Shown piece after piece: positions 1,945 through 59,252 of a stretch of 64,000 bases of DNA (position 1 is the stretch's first letter; each line of letters opens with the position of its first letter). A program made the translations under genes and the position numbers. Source of the stretch: Flavobacteriaceae bacterium PS02337 (GTDB taxonomy: Bacteria; Bacteroidota; Bacteroidia; Flavobacteriales; Flavobacteriaceae); contig JASCOE010000005.1 of assembly GCA_029959285.1 (NCBI GenBank), forward strand, positions 1 through 64,000. Reading direction: 5' to 3'. Below the pieces are notes generated by a model that saw nothing but the letters and a program-made list of their open reading frames with translations, made no database searches and was not told the DNA's origin.

Positions 1945-2069
1945 TTTTTGCCACGAATTTCACAAATTGGCACTAATTTTTATCAATAAGAAAGGAGAAA
2001 CGAATCTATTAATTTCGCAAATTTAATTCGTGAAAATTCGTGAAATTCGTGAAATTCGTGGCAAACTTT
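1945..2069. repeat. Palindromic intergenic repeat, family A (GCCACGAATTTCAC)
   Basis: The left arm starts TTTTGCCACGAATTTCAC at about 1947. The right arm ends AATTCGTGGCAAA at 2065. The right arm contains three tandem copies of the 9-mer AATTCGTGA. It lies between the convergent ends of trxA and the histidine kinase. Other family A copies in the window are at 37339-37463, 56476-56541 and 59078-59153. Confidence 0.85.
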
Positions 2070-10085: not shown

Positions 10086-10560
10086 GCCCAAATACGGTAT
10101 CTAAGATTAGTTGTGTTGTTTTGCTACGACTTTGTAACTCGTAGCTGGTTTAGTAGTTAGACCAATGAAAAGCTTTCCACTTTTGTGGATGGCTTTTTTG
10201 ATTTATACCCTTTTACAAATTCCATTTTTTTTAACGCAAAGGGCACAAAGATTTTACGCAAAGCTCGCCAAGATATTTTTTTTAAGATTTTTAAAAGTTC
10301 TCAAAATTTATAATCATTAAGTCTTGAGAATTTTATGTTTAATACAATGATCTATATTCTTTTTCAAATTCAAAATTCCATACAGTTTGTCATTCTGAGG
10401 AACGAAGAATCTTCACAAGAAACTCTACAAAGATTAGTATTGTGATTTGTCTTTACAGTTAAAAAGAAAGAAACTTCTTCTTTTTTGATTTTGTTGCCAA
10501 TTTTTAAAATATTGGAATTTAACCAATTAAAAATTTCTCAAATTTTATTCGTAAAAACGC
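10086..10560. other. Gene-free spacer between the two tRNA-Asp copies
   Basis: No coding ORF is supported. It holds a second hairpin with a T run (about 10167-10200), a single arm of repeat family B (10229-10275, TTAACGCAAAGGGC) and a single arm of family C (10387-10436, TCATTCTGAGGAACGAAG). These look like decayed copies of the interspersed palindromes. Confidence 0.6.
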
Positions 10561-16162: not shown

Positions 16163-16206
16163 AGATTTTGTTTCAGGTTTAAAGTTTCAAGTTCTTTGCG
16201 CACAGT

Positions 16207-16323
16207 TTGTCATCCTGAGGAACGAAGGATCACACACGGGATTCTGCAAAGATTGGCAACTTGCCTTATGAAATTACTTTGTGGAGCTTCTAGTATGATC
16301 CTTCGTTCCTCAGGATGACAAAT
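16207..16323. repeat. Palindromic intergenic repeat, family C (CCTGAGGAACGAAGG)
   Basis: The left arm TTTGTCATCCTGAGGAACG begins at 16207. Its complement CGTTCCTCAGGATGACAAA ends at 16322. The arms are about 27 nt and essentially perfect, with a loop of about 60 nt. It lies in the gap after the efflux operon. Short decayed motifs follow (about 16349-16382, CTCTGCGGAACTCTGCGG). Confidence 0.85.
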
Positions 16324-17175: not shown

Positions 17176-17352
17176 TGTCATTTCGAGGTGAGGAGAAATC
17201 TTTGCAAGTAACTCCGCTAAGCTTTTTCCACATTTTAACCACAAAGTATTTCATTCTGAGGAACGAAGAATCTCCACAAGTAACTCCGCAAAGTAAATTC
17301 CCAATCTTTGTTGAGCTTCTTACGAAGATTCTTCGTTCCTCAGAATGACAAA
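17176..17352. repeat. Compound palindromic repeat, family C
   Basis: The main palindrome runs from TCATTCTGAGGAACGAAGAA (from 17251) to TTCTTCGTTCCTCAGAATGA (to 17348). A diverged extra left arm (GTCATTTCGAGGTGAGGAG, from 17177) precedes it. Both left arms continue with AAGTAACTCCGC, which shows that the arm was duplicated. No gene is seen between 17078 and 17419. Confidence 0.8.
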
Positions 17353-17383
17353 CTAGACGGATTTACTTCATTAAATAATAAAT

Positions 17384-18768: not shown

Positions 18769-18793
18769 TTTCGCAATCATAATCGTCATTTTT

Positions 18794-18895
18794 TGTCATT
18801 CAGAGGAACGAAGGAATCTCACTATAAATCCACACAGAAAAGCGTCAATCTTTGTCGATTTGCGCGTGAGATTCCTTCGTTCCTCGGAATGACAA
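18794..18895. repeat. Palindromic intergenic repeat, family C
   Basis: TTGTCATTCAGAGGAACG at the left and CGTTCCTCGGAATGACAA at the right, with inner arms GAAGGAATCTCAC / GTGAGATTCCTTC. Together with the family D pair it fills the 414-bp gap between the 77-residue gene and the 252-residue gene; no other gene is seen there. Confidence 0.85.
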
Positions 18896-18910
18896 GAATG
18901 TGAAATTGGT

Positions 18911-21434: not shown

Positions 21435-21512
21435 TTAACGCAAAGAGCGCTAAGAATTTACGCAAAGTTCGCTGTGTTTTTTGCTCGCAAAGGCGCAAGG
21501 TCGCAAAGTTTT
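21435..21512. repeat. Family B repeat, rearranged copy
   Basis: TTAACGCAAAGAGCGCTAAG is followed by ACGCAAAGTTCGC and then CTCGCAAAGGCGCAAGG, so direct rather than inverted half-units. Family F follows at 21522-21554. Together with a terminator and the direct repeats below, this accounts for the 347-bp gap before the GT61-like gene. Confidence 0.65.
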
Positions 21513-21521
21513 TAGATGTAG

Positions 21522-21554
21522 AACTTTGTCAAAGTTTTAAACTTTGACAAAGTT
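21522..21554. repeat. Palindrome family F
   Basis: AACTTTGTCAAAGTT joins TTAAACTTTGACAAAGTT, a near-perfect dyad without a following T run. Confidence 0.8.
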
Positions 21555-22875: not shown

Positions 22876-23121
22876 GTTGCTAAGATTCTGTGTGACTAAG
22901 TTTTTTTCGTTTGTCAAAATTTTAAGCTTTGACAGAGATTCTTAATATAAACAATTACGAAAATTTGGCTAAAGCCAATATATTTTCTCTTCATAATCTC
23001 CCGCTAAAGCTGGAGACAATTCATTTTACGTTATATTTTTTCGCAAAGCAAACAACCTCTGTTTGTTAGGATCTTTGGCACTTTGTATCTAAAAATTAGC
23101 AACTTAGTACTTCAGAGTCTG
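22868..23121. repeat. Nested palindromes: family H enclosing F and E
   Basis: The outer arms TCTAAGTTGCTAAGATTCTG (from 22871) and AATTAGCAACTTAG (about 23093) are inverted with respect to each other. Inside lie a diverged family F dyad (22910-22936) and an inverted family E unit (GGCTAAAGCC at 22967-22976, CTCCCGCTAAAGCTGGAG at 22998-23015). This accounts for nearly all of the 357-bp gap before the operon; the remainder is the promoter. Confidence 0.65.
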
Positions 23122-35270: not shown

Positions 35271-35398
35271 TTAACCGCAAAGAACGCAAAGGCATTCGCA
35301 AAGTTCGCAAAGTTTTTATAAAAGAAAACCATCAGTTTATAGCTGATGGTTTTTTCTTTGTGAACTTTGCGTAAAATCCTTGCGTTCTTTGCGGTTAG
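35271..35398. repeat. Palindromic repeat, family B, with terminator core
   Basis: The arms TTAACCGCAAAGAACGCAAAG and, complementary, CTTTGCGTTCTTTGCGGTTA extend about 42 nt with few mismatches. The centre is a separate hairpin AAACCATCAG / CTGATGGTTT (35326-35353) with T runs. It lies between two convergent genes and can serve as a bidirectional terminator. Confidence 0.85.
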
Positions 35399-37338: not shown

Positions 37339-37463
37339 TTTTGCCACGAATTTCACGAATTTACACGAATTAATTTTTTGCCACAGATTAAAGGATTAAA
37401 ATGATTAAATCTGTGTAAATCTTTTTAATCTGTGGCAAAGAAAAAAATAAATTCGTGGCAAAC
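37339..37463. repeat. Family A palindrome with a second palindrome nested inside
   Basis: The outer arms TTGCCACGAATTTCACGAAT (from 37341) and AATTCGTGGCAA (to 37461) belong to family A. In between, 37375-37447 is a complete second palindrome with arms GCCACAGATTAAAGGATT and AATCTGTGGC plus flanking TTTTTT / AAAAAA. The outer right arm is short, as if the insertion removed part of it. Confidence 0.8.
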
Positions 37464-38221: not shown

Positions 38222-38757
38222 TTAACCGCAAGGTTCGCTAAGGTTTACGCAAAGGGCGCTAGGATTTTTTACAGATTGTTTGCTATTCTTTTTACTCCAT
38301 GTTTTAGTAAAGCGACATTAAAATTTATCAATAAACCGAGTTTGCAATTTGTTAGTTTTAAGTAAGTCAGTAGTTGGGCAAAATGAACTTCATTTAAACA
38401 ATCGACTGCTTTGATTTCCAAAATTAGTTTATTTTCTAATAAAATATCTAATCGATAACCAACATCTAATTTTACTTCTTCATAAATTAAAGGTAAAGGT
38501 TTTTGTTTTTCAACCGATAAGCCAAGTTTTCTTAATTCATAAAATAGGCATTCTTCATAAGCACTTTCTAAAAGGCCTGGACCTAAAGTTTGATGAACTT
38601 TTAGAGCAGAATTAAATACAATTCGAGATAAATCATTCTCAGACATAAAATCAATATTAAATTTCAAATATAACATTTGAAATTTTAAAATATAAATTTA
38701 TTCCTACAAAAAATAAATAGTGCCCTTTGCGTAAACCTTAGCGAACCTTGCGGTTAA
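38222..38757. mobile_element. Repeat-bounded element (family B arms) carrying a GxxExxY gene
   Basis: The left arm, 38222-38261, starts TTAACCGCAAGGTTCGC. The right arm, 38718-38757, is its reverse complement with a single mismatch in 40 nt. The 456-bp interior is almost filled by one ORF, whose stop is 7 nt from the left arm and whose start is about 70 nt from the right arm. The element sits 2 nt from the hemW stop on one side and 6 nt from the cyclase start on the other. The same terminal motif occurs elsewhere in the window as gene-less palindromes. No target-site duplication is evident. Confidence 0.7.
38269..38646 (-). CDS. GxxExxY protein (PD-(D/E)XK nuclease-like)
   Basis: 125 residues from the ATG at 38646, the usual family length; an in-frame ATG at 38676 would add 10 residues. 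Counted from that longer start, the defining motif G34-L-L-E37-S-A-Y40 follows the helix ALKVHQTLGPG. Then come D77 in YRLDILLE and E87-x-K89 in LILEIKAVD, the spacing of a PD-(D/E)XK nuclease core. Family members are small, often multicopy and uncharacterised. Nuclease activity is inferred from the motif only. The gene lies inside near-perfect 40-nt inverted repeats, which is the most striking context in this window. Confidence 0.9.
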   Translation of the reverse strand: MSENDLSRIVFNSALKVHQTLGPGLLESAYEECLFYELRKLGLSVEKQKPLPLIYEEVKLDVGYRLDILLENKLILEIKAVDCLNEVHFAQLLTYLKLTNCKLGLLINFNVALLKHGVKRIANNL

Positions 38758-40850: not shown

Positions 40851-41405
40851 TTATTTTCTGACTTTATCTTCATTTTGTTTTACAAAAGCATCCCAACCCG
40901 AATAACTTTTTCCTGCAACGACTTTTCCCGAATTAAAATGATGGCAAACAGCAGCCGCTAAACCATCTGTAGAATCTAGGTTTTTTGGTAATTCCTTTAA
41001 ACCTAAAAGTTGCTGTAGCATTTTCGCAACTTGTTCTTTACTAGCATTTCCGTTTCCGGTAATCGCCATTTTTATCTTTTTTGGTTCGTATTCTGTAATC
41101 GGAATATCTCTTGAAAGTCCTGCTGCCATTGCAACGCCTTGTGCGCGTCCCAATTTTAGCATCGATTGCACGTTTTTTCCAAAGAAAGGTGCTTCAATCG
41201 CAATCTCGTCCGGATGATGCGTTTCGATTAATTCGATTGTGCGTTCAAAAATGATTTTTAATTTTTGGTAATGATTGTCATATTTGGACAATTGCAGTTC
41301 GTTTAACTGCAAAAATTCCATTTTCTTGTTGGTGACTTTAATCAATCCAAAACCCATAATTGTGGTTCCAGGGTCAATACCTAATATGATGCGTTCTTTT
41401 GTCAA
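40851..41405 (-). CDS. ruvC: Holliday junction resolvase RuvC
   Basis: 184 residues. The RNase H-like fold carries all four catalytic acids: D11 in LGIDPGTT, E71 in IAIEAPFFG, and D144 and D147 in [14 protein letters not shown]. It cuts Holliday junctions as a dimer with the RuvAB branch-migration machine, which is not encoded in this window. Standard length. Nothing unusual. Confidence 0.97.
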
Positions 41406-46654: not shown

Positions 46655-46745
46655 TTTTTTTAGGCATCAATTCCCGCTTTCCGTTCCCAATTTTTTATTT
46701 TTTTAAAGAAAAAAATAAAAAGATTTCCACTTCAATCGGGGCTAC
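46655..46745 (-). repeat. Structured intergenic element
   Basis: On the minus strand: TAGCCCCGATTGAAGTGG, a hairpin TTTTTATTTTTTT / AAAAAAATAAAAA (46691-46722), then GGGAACGGAAAGCGGGAATT. The modular layout (conserved-looking boxes around a T/A hairpin) resembles a recurrent Bacteroidota intergenic element I recall, but only one copy is in this window. Confidence 0.45.
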
Positions 46746-46786
46746 ATTTCAAACAATTGGCTTCTTTTAAATATTTAAAAACAGGA

Positions 46787-56475: not shown

Positions 56476-56541
56476 TAGCCACGAATTCACGAATTATTTT
56501 TTGACAATCTTTTGGAATAAAAATTCGTGAATTCGTGGCTA
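56476..56541. repeat. Palindromic repeat, family A
   Basis: TAGCCACGAATTCACGAATT at the left is complementary to AATTCGTGAATTCGTGGCTA at the right, with a loop of about 22 nt. The extra TA outside the core pairs too, whereas other copies have paired TTT or CC at the same place. Confidence 0.9.
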
Positions 56542-57228: not shown

Positions 57229-57244
57229 TTTGCAGTGTTTTTTC

Positions 57245-57371
57245 TAACCGCAAAGGTCGCAAAGTTTTACGCAAAGGGCACAAGTTTTTTTATTTATATT
57301 AAAAAGGTTCGCAAAGATTTTATAAACCTTTGCGAACCTTGCGATTTTCCCTTGCGACCTTTGCGGTTAAG
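57245..57371. repeat. Palindromic repeat, family B
   Basis: CTAACCGCAAAGGTCGCAAA at the left, complement TTTGCGACCTTTGCGGTTAA at the right; an inner palindrome AAGGTTCGCAAAG / CTTTGCGAACCTT lies around 57304-57339. It lies between two minus-strand genes. Confidence 0.9.
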
Positions 57372-59077: not shown

Positions 59078-59153
59078 CCGCCACGAATTCACGAATTTCA
59101 CAAATTTAAATATGGATAATTAATTCGTGGAAATTTGTGAAATTCGTGGCGGA
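59078..59153. repeat. Palindromic repeat, family A
   Basis: CCGCCACGAATTCACGAATT at the left, complement TTCGTGGCGGA at the right, with further pairing through AATTTCACAAATT / AATTTGTGAAATT. The flanking CC/GG bases are paired and differ from the other copies. Confidence 0.85.
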
Positions 59154-59163
59154 TAAACTTTGC

Positions 59164-59189
59164 GGAGACGCACCGTTGTGCGCCTCTAC
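59164..59189 (-). repeat. REP-like hairpin with GTAG foot
   Basis: On the minus strand GTAG (59189-59186) is followed directly by AGGCGCAC-AACG-GTGCGTCTC (with one mismatch). The layout is like family D, but the stem sequence is different. It lies between a family A copy and a half family B copy. Confidence 0.6.
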
Positions 59190-59200
59190 GATATATATTG

Positions 59201-59252
59201 TGGCAAAAGCATTGCGAACTTTGCGCTTGTCTTTGCGAACTTTGCGGTTAGA
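59201..59252. repeat. Half copy of family B
   Basis: GCGAACTTTGCG occurs and then CTTTGCGAACTTTGCGGTTA, a right arm without its partner, ending next to the stop of the GH13 gene at 59254. Confidence 0.7.

Follow-up and report, generated by a model that had tools for sequence, protein, structure and literature searches.

RAYT transposases are the established partners of one type of short palindrome. As portrayed in parts of PMC3116915, PMC8049555 and PMC3733652, a RAYT gene is flanked by its own palindromes (REPINs), is present in few copies and is inherited mostly vertically, and its genome contains gene-less copies of repeats that are specific to that gene. Some other families of short bacterial palindromes lack a known dedicated enzyme, as PMC3733652 states for CGTC repeats; the word Flavobacterium is absent from this GTAG/CGTC survey. 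MITEs of bacteroidetes with IS5-like ends are treated in PMC4596501. The name GxxExxY appears once each in PMC8934634 and PMC12085832, in the former at a position next to a reverse transcriptase at which cas4 is called by another tool, in a passage not concerned with repeats; PF13366 appears in PMC9756366. Among the best matches of broad searches of the open-licence literature, we found no account that connects GxxExxY proteins with repeats.

Here, we describe a GxxExxY gene enclosed by inverted arms in a stretch of 64,000 nt, which in its full length is termed the window. Counts for the genus refer to Flavobacterium, as assigned by the relatives of the window.

The gene element and its protein

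The element comprises two arms and a gene:

38222..38261, plus strand: left arm, four CRC-N-RAG-like units (TTAACCGCAAGGTTCGCTAAGGTTTACGCAAAGGGCGCTA), with 39 of its 40 positions pairing with the right arm
38269..38676, minus strand: GxxExxY gene of 135 aa, predicted PD-(D/E)XK (Cas4/RecB-type) nuclease (TIGR04256, PF13366, AF2, Foldseek)
38718..38757, minus strand: right arm, an inverted copy of the left arm (pairing and unit clusters)

The pairing of the two arms at 39 of 40 positions, given in the original prediction for this locus, was confirmed and extends to 52 nt at 88%, or to 53 columns at 91%. The inverted-repeat score of the arms is 39.0, and the maximum over 20 shuffles was 14.5. 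The arms are built of CRC-N-RAG units that are mostly 9–12 nt apart and oriented inward, with four units in the left arm and three in the right when a relaxed motif is used. They enclose a single compact ORF, as had been noted, and its product is a clear member of the GxxExxY family, with scores of 146.8 bits for TIGR04256 (cut-off 35) and 141.4 bits for PF13366 PDDEXK_3 (cut-off 22). The closest named relative of the protein is from Flavobacterium phragmitis (L066, 94% protein identity). The neighbors also agree with those originally named, HemW (TIGR00539, 285 bits, cut-off 205) and a putative cyclase (PF04199), and all three genes lie on one strand in the same direction. A gene for the Holliday junction resolvase RuvC (PF02075) is located about 2 kb from the element (40851–41405, minus strand), and a Flavo-1 RNA (74 bits) is located at 46666–46747 (minus strand).

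An AF2 model of the window protein (pLDDT 90.3, pTM 0.84) was compared with PDB structures using Foldseek. The best match, and the sole one with E below 0.001, was the Cas4 protein SSO0001 (E 2.8e-4; TM-score by query 0.44–0.53 over chains), followed at E 0.02–0.04 by an Argonaute-associated Cas4 protein, AdnA-AdnB, and lambda exonuclease. The PD-(D/E)XK-type residues reported for the protein were recovered as D77 (of RLD) and E87-x-K89. Together with the predicted fold and Q101xxxY105, where QxxxY is the label of RecB-type nucleases, they are held in common with SSO0001, ACE1, and lambda exonuclease. Among 194 GxxExxY proteins (see below), E37, E87, K89, and Y105 are present in all, D77 in 193, and Q101 in 185. 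A Cas4 profile weakly matched the protein of locus L002 (E 2.4e-4) and gave no match for the window protein or that of L004.

The GxxExxY protein is a predicted Cas4/RecB-type PD-(D/E)XK nuclease, and it differs from those nucleases in being a stand-alone protein of about 130 aa. Cas4 proteins have four iron-sulfur cysteines; this set is absent here, C43 being the one invariant cysteine in 54 aligned sequences (alignment A2: the window protein and 53 of 80 named-genome loci, leaving out L085 and L111, which have a stop within their coordinates, and 25 others). A Pfam scan of the ten ORFs at 34–42 kb detected no cas genes beside the element. The window protein matches PF13366 and TIGR04256 only and has no Y1 (HUH) domain such as that of RAYTs. 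No relative of solved structure was found by sequence up to E 1, the protein of L115 had no match in a phage collection, and no PHROG was assigned to the three GxxExxY proteins tested.

Arms and repeats across genomes

To evaluate how general the arrangement is, we compiled 243 loci with 213 domain matches, from which junction loci (L146–L185), a duplicate (L032), and matches under 90 aa were excluded; 196 matches were used and 194 tested, as two flanks were too short. The named-genome scan contributed the best 80 loci, which are mostly from Bacteroidota but carry ten other phylum labels as well, and choosing loci by best match favors orthologs. Because a few genomes may have entered twice under different names (L027 and L067, for instance, resemble each other), counts are also given by site group, defined by single linkage on flanking-protein homology; some groups mix loci of different unit class.

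Inverted arms (inverted-repeat score of at least 14) were identified on both sides of 155 of the 194 genes as compared to 1 of 367 displaced controls, and at a score of 16 the numbers were 130 and 0, respectively. The remaining 39 genes had arm scores below 14, and 11 of the 155 armed genes have, for the most part, a complete palindrome on either side in place of a simple arm. Counted by site group, arms are present in 62 of 77, a number that falls to 57 when each group is represented by its first member only. The search of relatives that the original prediction called for therefore shows a general association, and the situation that it named as fatal to the link, in which GxxExxY genes are usually unarmed, is not what is found. 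Within 200 bp of 146 genes, 743 CRC[AGT]RAG-type units point inward and 169 outward. The arms fall into the unit classes CRCRRAG (class A), CACRATT, ATTAAG, and ATATAAG, and their outer ends read, by eye, TTAACC, AACAC, or GCCAC.

Arms were found at loci from nine phyla. Outside of Bacteroidota, 12 of 16 loci have arms with scores of at least 14, including 3 of 3 from Cyanobacteriota and 2 of 3 from Chloroflexota; one of the 12 (L071, from a 'Rhizobium' bin) carries a gene 78% identical to the window protein and is probably a misbinned flavobacterial contig. Six of eight plasmid matches were examined and four reached a score of 14 (arms in Bernardetia, Bacteroides, and Sphingomonas; palindromes on each side in Gemmatirosa), with those from a Fusobacteria bacterium and Treponema falling below it. 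Several GxxExxY copies have an internal stop, and L162 (genome G053) yields a partial match only, which suggests that the gene decays in places while the arms persist.

All four clear PF13366 genes of the window genome lie between inverted arms (a weak fifth match without arms, L005, was left out of the counts), and the four sets of arms all differ (TTAACCGCAAGG..., TTTTTTAACGCAAAG..., ACCATTAAGATATTAAG..., and AACACGAATTTCACAAATT...). This indicates that the arms are something other than the most frequent repeat nearby, and the view that they merely mirror the common repeat of the host was rejected on these four different arms together with a Mantel test. Since loci of the same clade often share a site, this comparison of arms and proteins was repeated on 62 site-independent armed loci: arm similarity rose with protein identity (from 0.08 to 0.31 over identity bins), and the Mantel r was 0.34, with 0 of 2000 permutations as high and no change after GC correction. 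Within class A alone, r was 0.31, and again 0 of 2000 permutations were as high.

The 194 loci comprise 77 flank-homology groups, and 23 loci are grouped with that of the window (best-match loci, single linkage). Judged from these flanks, the gene in Flavobacterium mostly stays at few orthologous sites, and the notion of a freely hopping gene was rejected on this distribution. Orientation was scored in 69 site groups: the gene is sense to both neighbors in 55, antisense in 4, and between non-codirectional genes in 10, while other neighboring ORF pairs had a ratio of same to different direction of 344:117. Median dN/dS was 0.04–0.08 in three GxxExxY clades, indicating strong purifying selection.

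TIGR04256 was detected in 98 of 121 genomes of the genus and in 101 of 198 phylum-drawn genomes (99 above the cut-off), with 1–9 matches per carrier in the genus and up to 12 in the phylum draw. Class-A repeats were counted with the pattern CRCDRAGNNCRCDRAG, including the arms of the genes themselves, and the reversed pattern served as the control. In counts that ignore phylogeny, carriers of the genus had a mean of 39.8 matches (n = 98; control 1.45) as compared to 2.1 in non-carriers (n = 23; control 1.48), and 33 of 98 carriers versus 0 of 23 non-carriers had at least 20. The rest of the phylum, after removal of ten genomes of the same genus, had means of 18.9 in 92 carriers (control 2.9; two of them, G262 and G293, match only below the family cut-off) and 4.6 in 96 non-carriers (control 5.7), with at least 20 matches in 28 and 3 genomes, respectively. 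Pattern matches reached 327 per genus genome, versus 1–9 gene matches. Exceptions occur in both directions. Class-A copies were found despite the lack of a gene in G095 (18), G225 (38, in 120 contigs), G163 (22), and G255 (22; control 8), as were ATTAAG-type copies in G010 and G044 (8 each), and five carriers (G018, G027, G107, G111, and G116) had none of the three patterns searched.

Protein clades largely pair with their own unit, with 29 of 194 loci left unclassed by motif count. With clade carriers defined by at least 69% identity to the L002 protein or at least 70% to that of L004, the median number of ATTAAG repeats among the 121 genomes was 18 in the 20 carriers of the ATTAAG-clade gene and 0 elsewhere, and that of CACRATT repeats was 16 in the 19 carriers of the CACRATT-clade gene and 1 elsewhere. 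When each gene is considered alone, a weaker correlation is also seen between either repeat class and the gene of the other class (p = 0.001 and 0.0005). In a joint rank regression over the 121 genomes, however, the gene of the matching clade stood out, both for ATTAAG repeats (t = 5.2, versus 0.8 for the other gene) and for CACRATT repeats (t = 5.0 versus 1.2), and the number of genes in the genome also counted (t = 6.4 and 6.6). As an exception, the window genome contains a B2-type palindrome, yet none of its four genes belongs, by clade reading, to the B2 clade.

Palindromes without a gene

The window contains the following arrays and palindromes that lack a gene (strand given for half arrays; the palindromes are unstranded):

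1952..2061 (approximate): class-B palindrome (CACRATT units, ++++----), from the inverted-repeat and unit scan
10229..10264, plus strand: half array with outer sequence TTTTTTAACGCAAAG, like L003, another class-A gene element of the same genome
10744..10864: class-A palindrome (++++----), from outer-sequence matches, pairing, and units
21435..21509, plus strand: class-A half array of the TTTTTTAACGCAAAG type, from pairing and units
35271..35398: class-A palindrome (++++----), from outer-sequence matches, pairing, and units
37345..37458 (approximate): class-B palindrome (++++---), from the unit scan
56476..56541 (approximate): class-B2 palindrome (TAGCCACGAATTCACGAATT...), at a site that is empty in G053 and G054
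57244..57370: class-A palindrome (++++----), the loop of which holds other palindromes in some relatives
59082..59149 (approximate): class-B palindrome (+++---), from the unit scan
59158..59251 (approximate), minus strand: class-A half array with end CTAACCGCAA, from sequence matches and units

The three gene-less class-A palindromes are built like the arms of the gene element (++++----). That they are bounded by TTAACCGCAA, as first reported, holds with one mismatch at two of the six ends, and the last of them starts one base earlier than reported, at 57244. Allowing one mismatch, TTAACCGCAA has 14 matches in the window against 7.6 expected, a number reached in 0 of 100 shuffles. Half copies with this outer sequence had also been described. 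Those at 10229 and 21435 do not have it, and start instead with TTTTTTAACGCAAAG, the outer sequence of the L003 element; the third, placed at 59201, is indeed a class-A half array but spans about 59158–59251 and has the minus-strand end CTAACCGCAA.

Other palindromes occur alongside these arrays. A further one, GAGACGCAC..GTGCGCCTCTAC, lies at about 59165–59205, between the class-B and class-A arrays, and is common to junction J3 of the relatives. A separate GTCATTCTGAGGAACGAAGAATCTC-like family is represented, without a gene, at 16204–16322, 17245–17354, and 18790–18898. The short palindrome CTTTGTCAAAGTTTTAAACTTTGACAAAG is found at 21524–21551 and 22910–22937, as well as at junction J1 of G103, G008, G108, and partly G077. 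None of the palindromes corresponded to an RNA family already described: with gathering thresholds applied, only Flavo-1 and three tRNAs were recovered from the window, and ten loci of relatives yielded only matches below gathering score, to microRNA families.

The comparison of the hemW-cyclase junction across species, which had been proposed as a check, revealed several states among 40 stretches and other loci: the gene element, palindromes without a gene that belong either to class A or to the CGCGGATT type, a single bare junction (G035), and a different insert in G007, with about 1 kb more in G096, G102, and G004. Given this variability, the gene with unrelated flanks is not a constant of the junction, the other finding under which the link would have been put down to chance. 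The insert of G007 (L185:402–686, minus strand) is a 94-aa GIY-YIG nuclease gene (PF01541, 1.8e-18) with a CTGAA..TTCAG hairpin at each end, and possibly constitutes a second pairing of a small nuclease with palindromes; a motif scan found no other such pair among the collected loci.

The comparison was extended to three other junctions in 20 relatives. Where the window has its B2 palindrome (56476–56541), G053 and G054 have an empty site, and ATATTTT flanks the window block on both sides, at one AT-rich junction. The difference may reflect either an insertion or a precise loss, the empty site being then a deletion. G042, G109, and the window share an uninterrupted class-A palindrome, the loop of which contains a complete B2 palindrome in G049. 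More generally, gene-less palindromes differ between genomes by the presence or absence of discrete, whole units, some of which sit in the loops of others. Searching with exact arms only, we identified 14 B2 copies in the compared stretches and the window, most of which have, by eye, one asymmetric loop that occurs in both orientations at one junction. The two pairs in which both B2 copies come from one genome had a loop score of 0.88, versus a shuffled mean of 0.45 (maximum 0.58). Near-identical loops at different junctions, discrete presence or absence, and nesting suggest that complete units spread.

Explanations and comparison with known systems

On balance, we consider it probable that GxxExxY genes form cognate partnerships with the unit-array palindromes that surround them, in the manner of RAYTs and REPINs but with a nuclease replacing the transposase. 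A nuclease-linked, transposase-free repeat system, in line with the original proposal, remains the best reading in that the palindromes follow the gene in a class-specific manner and Y1 transposases, the sole family compared, are not the flanked partner. Two other elements of the proposal fared less well. The gene was taken for an autonomous element, but mostly stays at few orthologous sites, more like a resident RAYT gene. The short palindromes were taken for its internally deleted derivatives, but they far outnumber the gene in some genomes and occur at several sites as complete units with their own loop.

Movement of the palindromes by the nuclease is inferred rather than observed. Under the favored reading, the nuclease would recognize its cognate array, probably where the palindrome folds into a hairpin or cruciform, and would cut it; host repair or replication might then copy the palindrome into new intergenic sites, including the exposed loops of other hairpins. 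The gene itself could survive by being transcribed together with the gene upstream, as an additional read-through cistron. The broader proposition is evenly balanced in our estimation: that GxxExxY proteins drive widespread transposase-free mobile palindromes, with each lineage reading its own array of about 3–4 units per arm, cutting the hairpin, and seeding whole palindromes into intergenic sites and the loops of other hairpins, with unit classes and protein clades co-diverging, and with the gene as a domesticated operon resident.

An unlikely alternative is that a cellular nuclease binds or processes the arrays, for example by cruciform cutting or transcript trimming, and that the arrays are binding sites or terminators that decay after loss of the gene. 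Strong purifying selection is what would be expected of a regulator or repair factor with its sites, and the fixed co-directional position of the gene and the class-specific dependence of the repeats fit as well. Such a role does not account for near-identical complete palindromes, loop included, at different junctions (0.88 versus 0.45 when shuffled) or for palindromes of one class nested in the loops of another. This nesting and near-identity make copying look likelier than the upkeep of fixed sites.

It is improbable that the gene is a passenger and that the palindromes are MITEs of another, unrecognized transposase, a few of which carry the gene. One site is empty in two species, and in the window the block there is bounded on either side by ATATTTT, as would be expected of a transposed unit with target duplication. 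Y1 transposases (PF01797) are found in 87 of 121 genus genomes, and among GxxExxY carriers class-A copies are more numerous when Y1 is also present (mean 44.9, n = 78) than in its absence (mean 19.9, n = 20). However, copy number tracks the GxxExxY clade class by class, the gene hardly moves, and genomes with Y1 but without GxxExxY have a mean of 3.9 class-A copies (n = 9). G004 has no Y1 match, yet has 175 class-A and 100 ATTAAG matches. Y1 loci were sampled at 30 sites, and the 28 that were complete enough to score had class-A units that were rare and unoriented (2 inward, 3 outward); 13 had inverted repeats with scores of at least 16, none of which were built of class-A units. With Y1 loci lacking class-A arrays, a Y1/RAYT-type transposase was rejected as the flanked partner of these arrays. 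Several of the Y1 inverted repeats (e.g., L254, L256, L259, L263, L267, and L269) read like CCCGTTAGGG...GGTAG, and these Flavobacterium hairpins resemble the GTAG-type REPs described in PMC3733652.

Homing, in which gene-less palindromes cut by the nuclease of their class would be repaired on the template of the gene-bearing copy and so acquire the gene, is very improbable. It would explain why the gene is located between the arms of its palindrome and why one junction is gene-bearing or gene-less in close species. On a tree of the flanks of the hemW junction (51 rows), at least 20 state changes are required versus a shuffled mean of 24.9; good support is confined to 14 of the 48 inner branches of this tree, and flanking recombination could add changes; such recombination could also swap alleles at the junction. 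Homing would fill the many gene-less copies present in some genomes, but the gene occupies few sites. Lastly, chance or an annotation artifact, for which the commonness of several kinds of intergenic palindrome in these genomes might speak, is hardly credible and is refuted by the displaced controls (155 of 194 versus 1 of 367), along with the occurrence of arms in several phyla and the class specificity.

The partnership favored here would place a RAYT-like signature, namely cognate flanks, class-specific copy number, and vertical residence, in an unrelated, uncharacterized nuclease family. If GxxExxY proteins move or maintain the palindromes, this would provide a function for the family and explain several repeat families. 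It would also mean that a partnership between gene and repeat can rest on a nuclease, that short DNA repeats have a route to spread without a transposase, and that the clade-specific units offer a ready-made series of small DNA-recognition pairs of nuclease and target.

With MITEs, the palindromes have in common that they are short, non-coding, intergenic, and multicopy and have inverted repeats. They differ in that no parent transposon was found (Y1 compared), in that their cognate gene is a mostly resident nuclease, and in that their arms are unit arrays. The likeness to RAYT/REPIN systems is closer: a gene of few copies and mostly vertical descent is flanked by its own palindromes, many copies of which are gene-less, and the repeats are gene-specific and more common where the gene is present. 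In contrast to RAYT/REPIN systems, the gene encodes a predicted PD-(D/E)XK nuclease rather than a Y1/HUH transposase, the repeats are phased arrays of short units rather than GTAG-tagged hairpins (no GTAG tag is seen by eye at their outer ends), and Y1 loci of the same genus carry other repeats. Since it has neither a Y1 transposase nor a GTAG tag, we place the GxxExxY system outside of RAYT/REPIN, and since the two have no defining enzyme feature in common, we count it as a new kind of system whose logic is RAYT-like.
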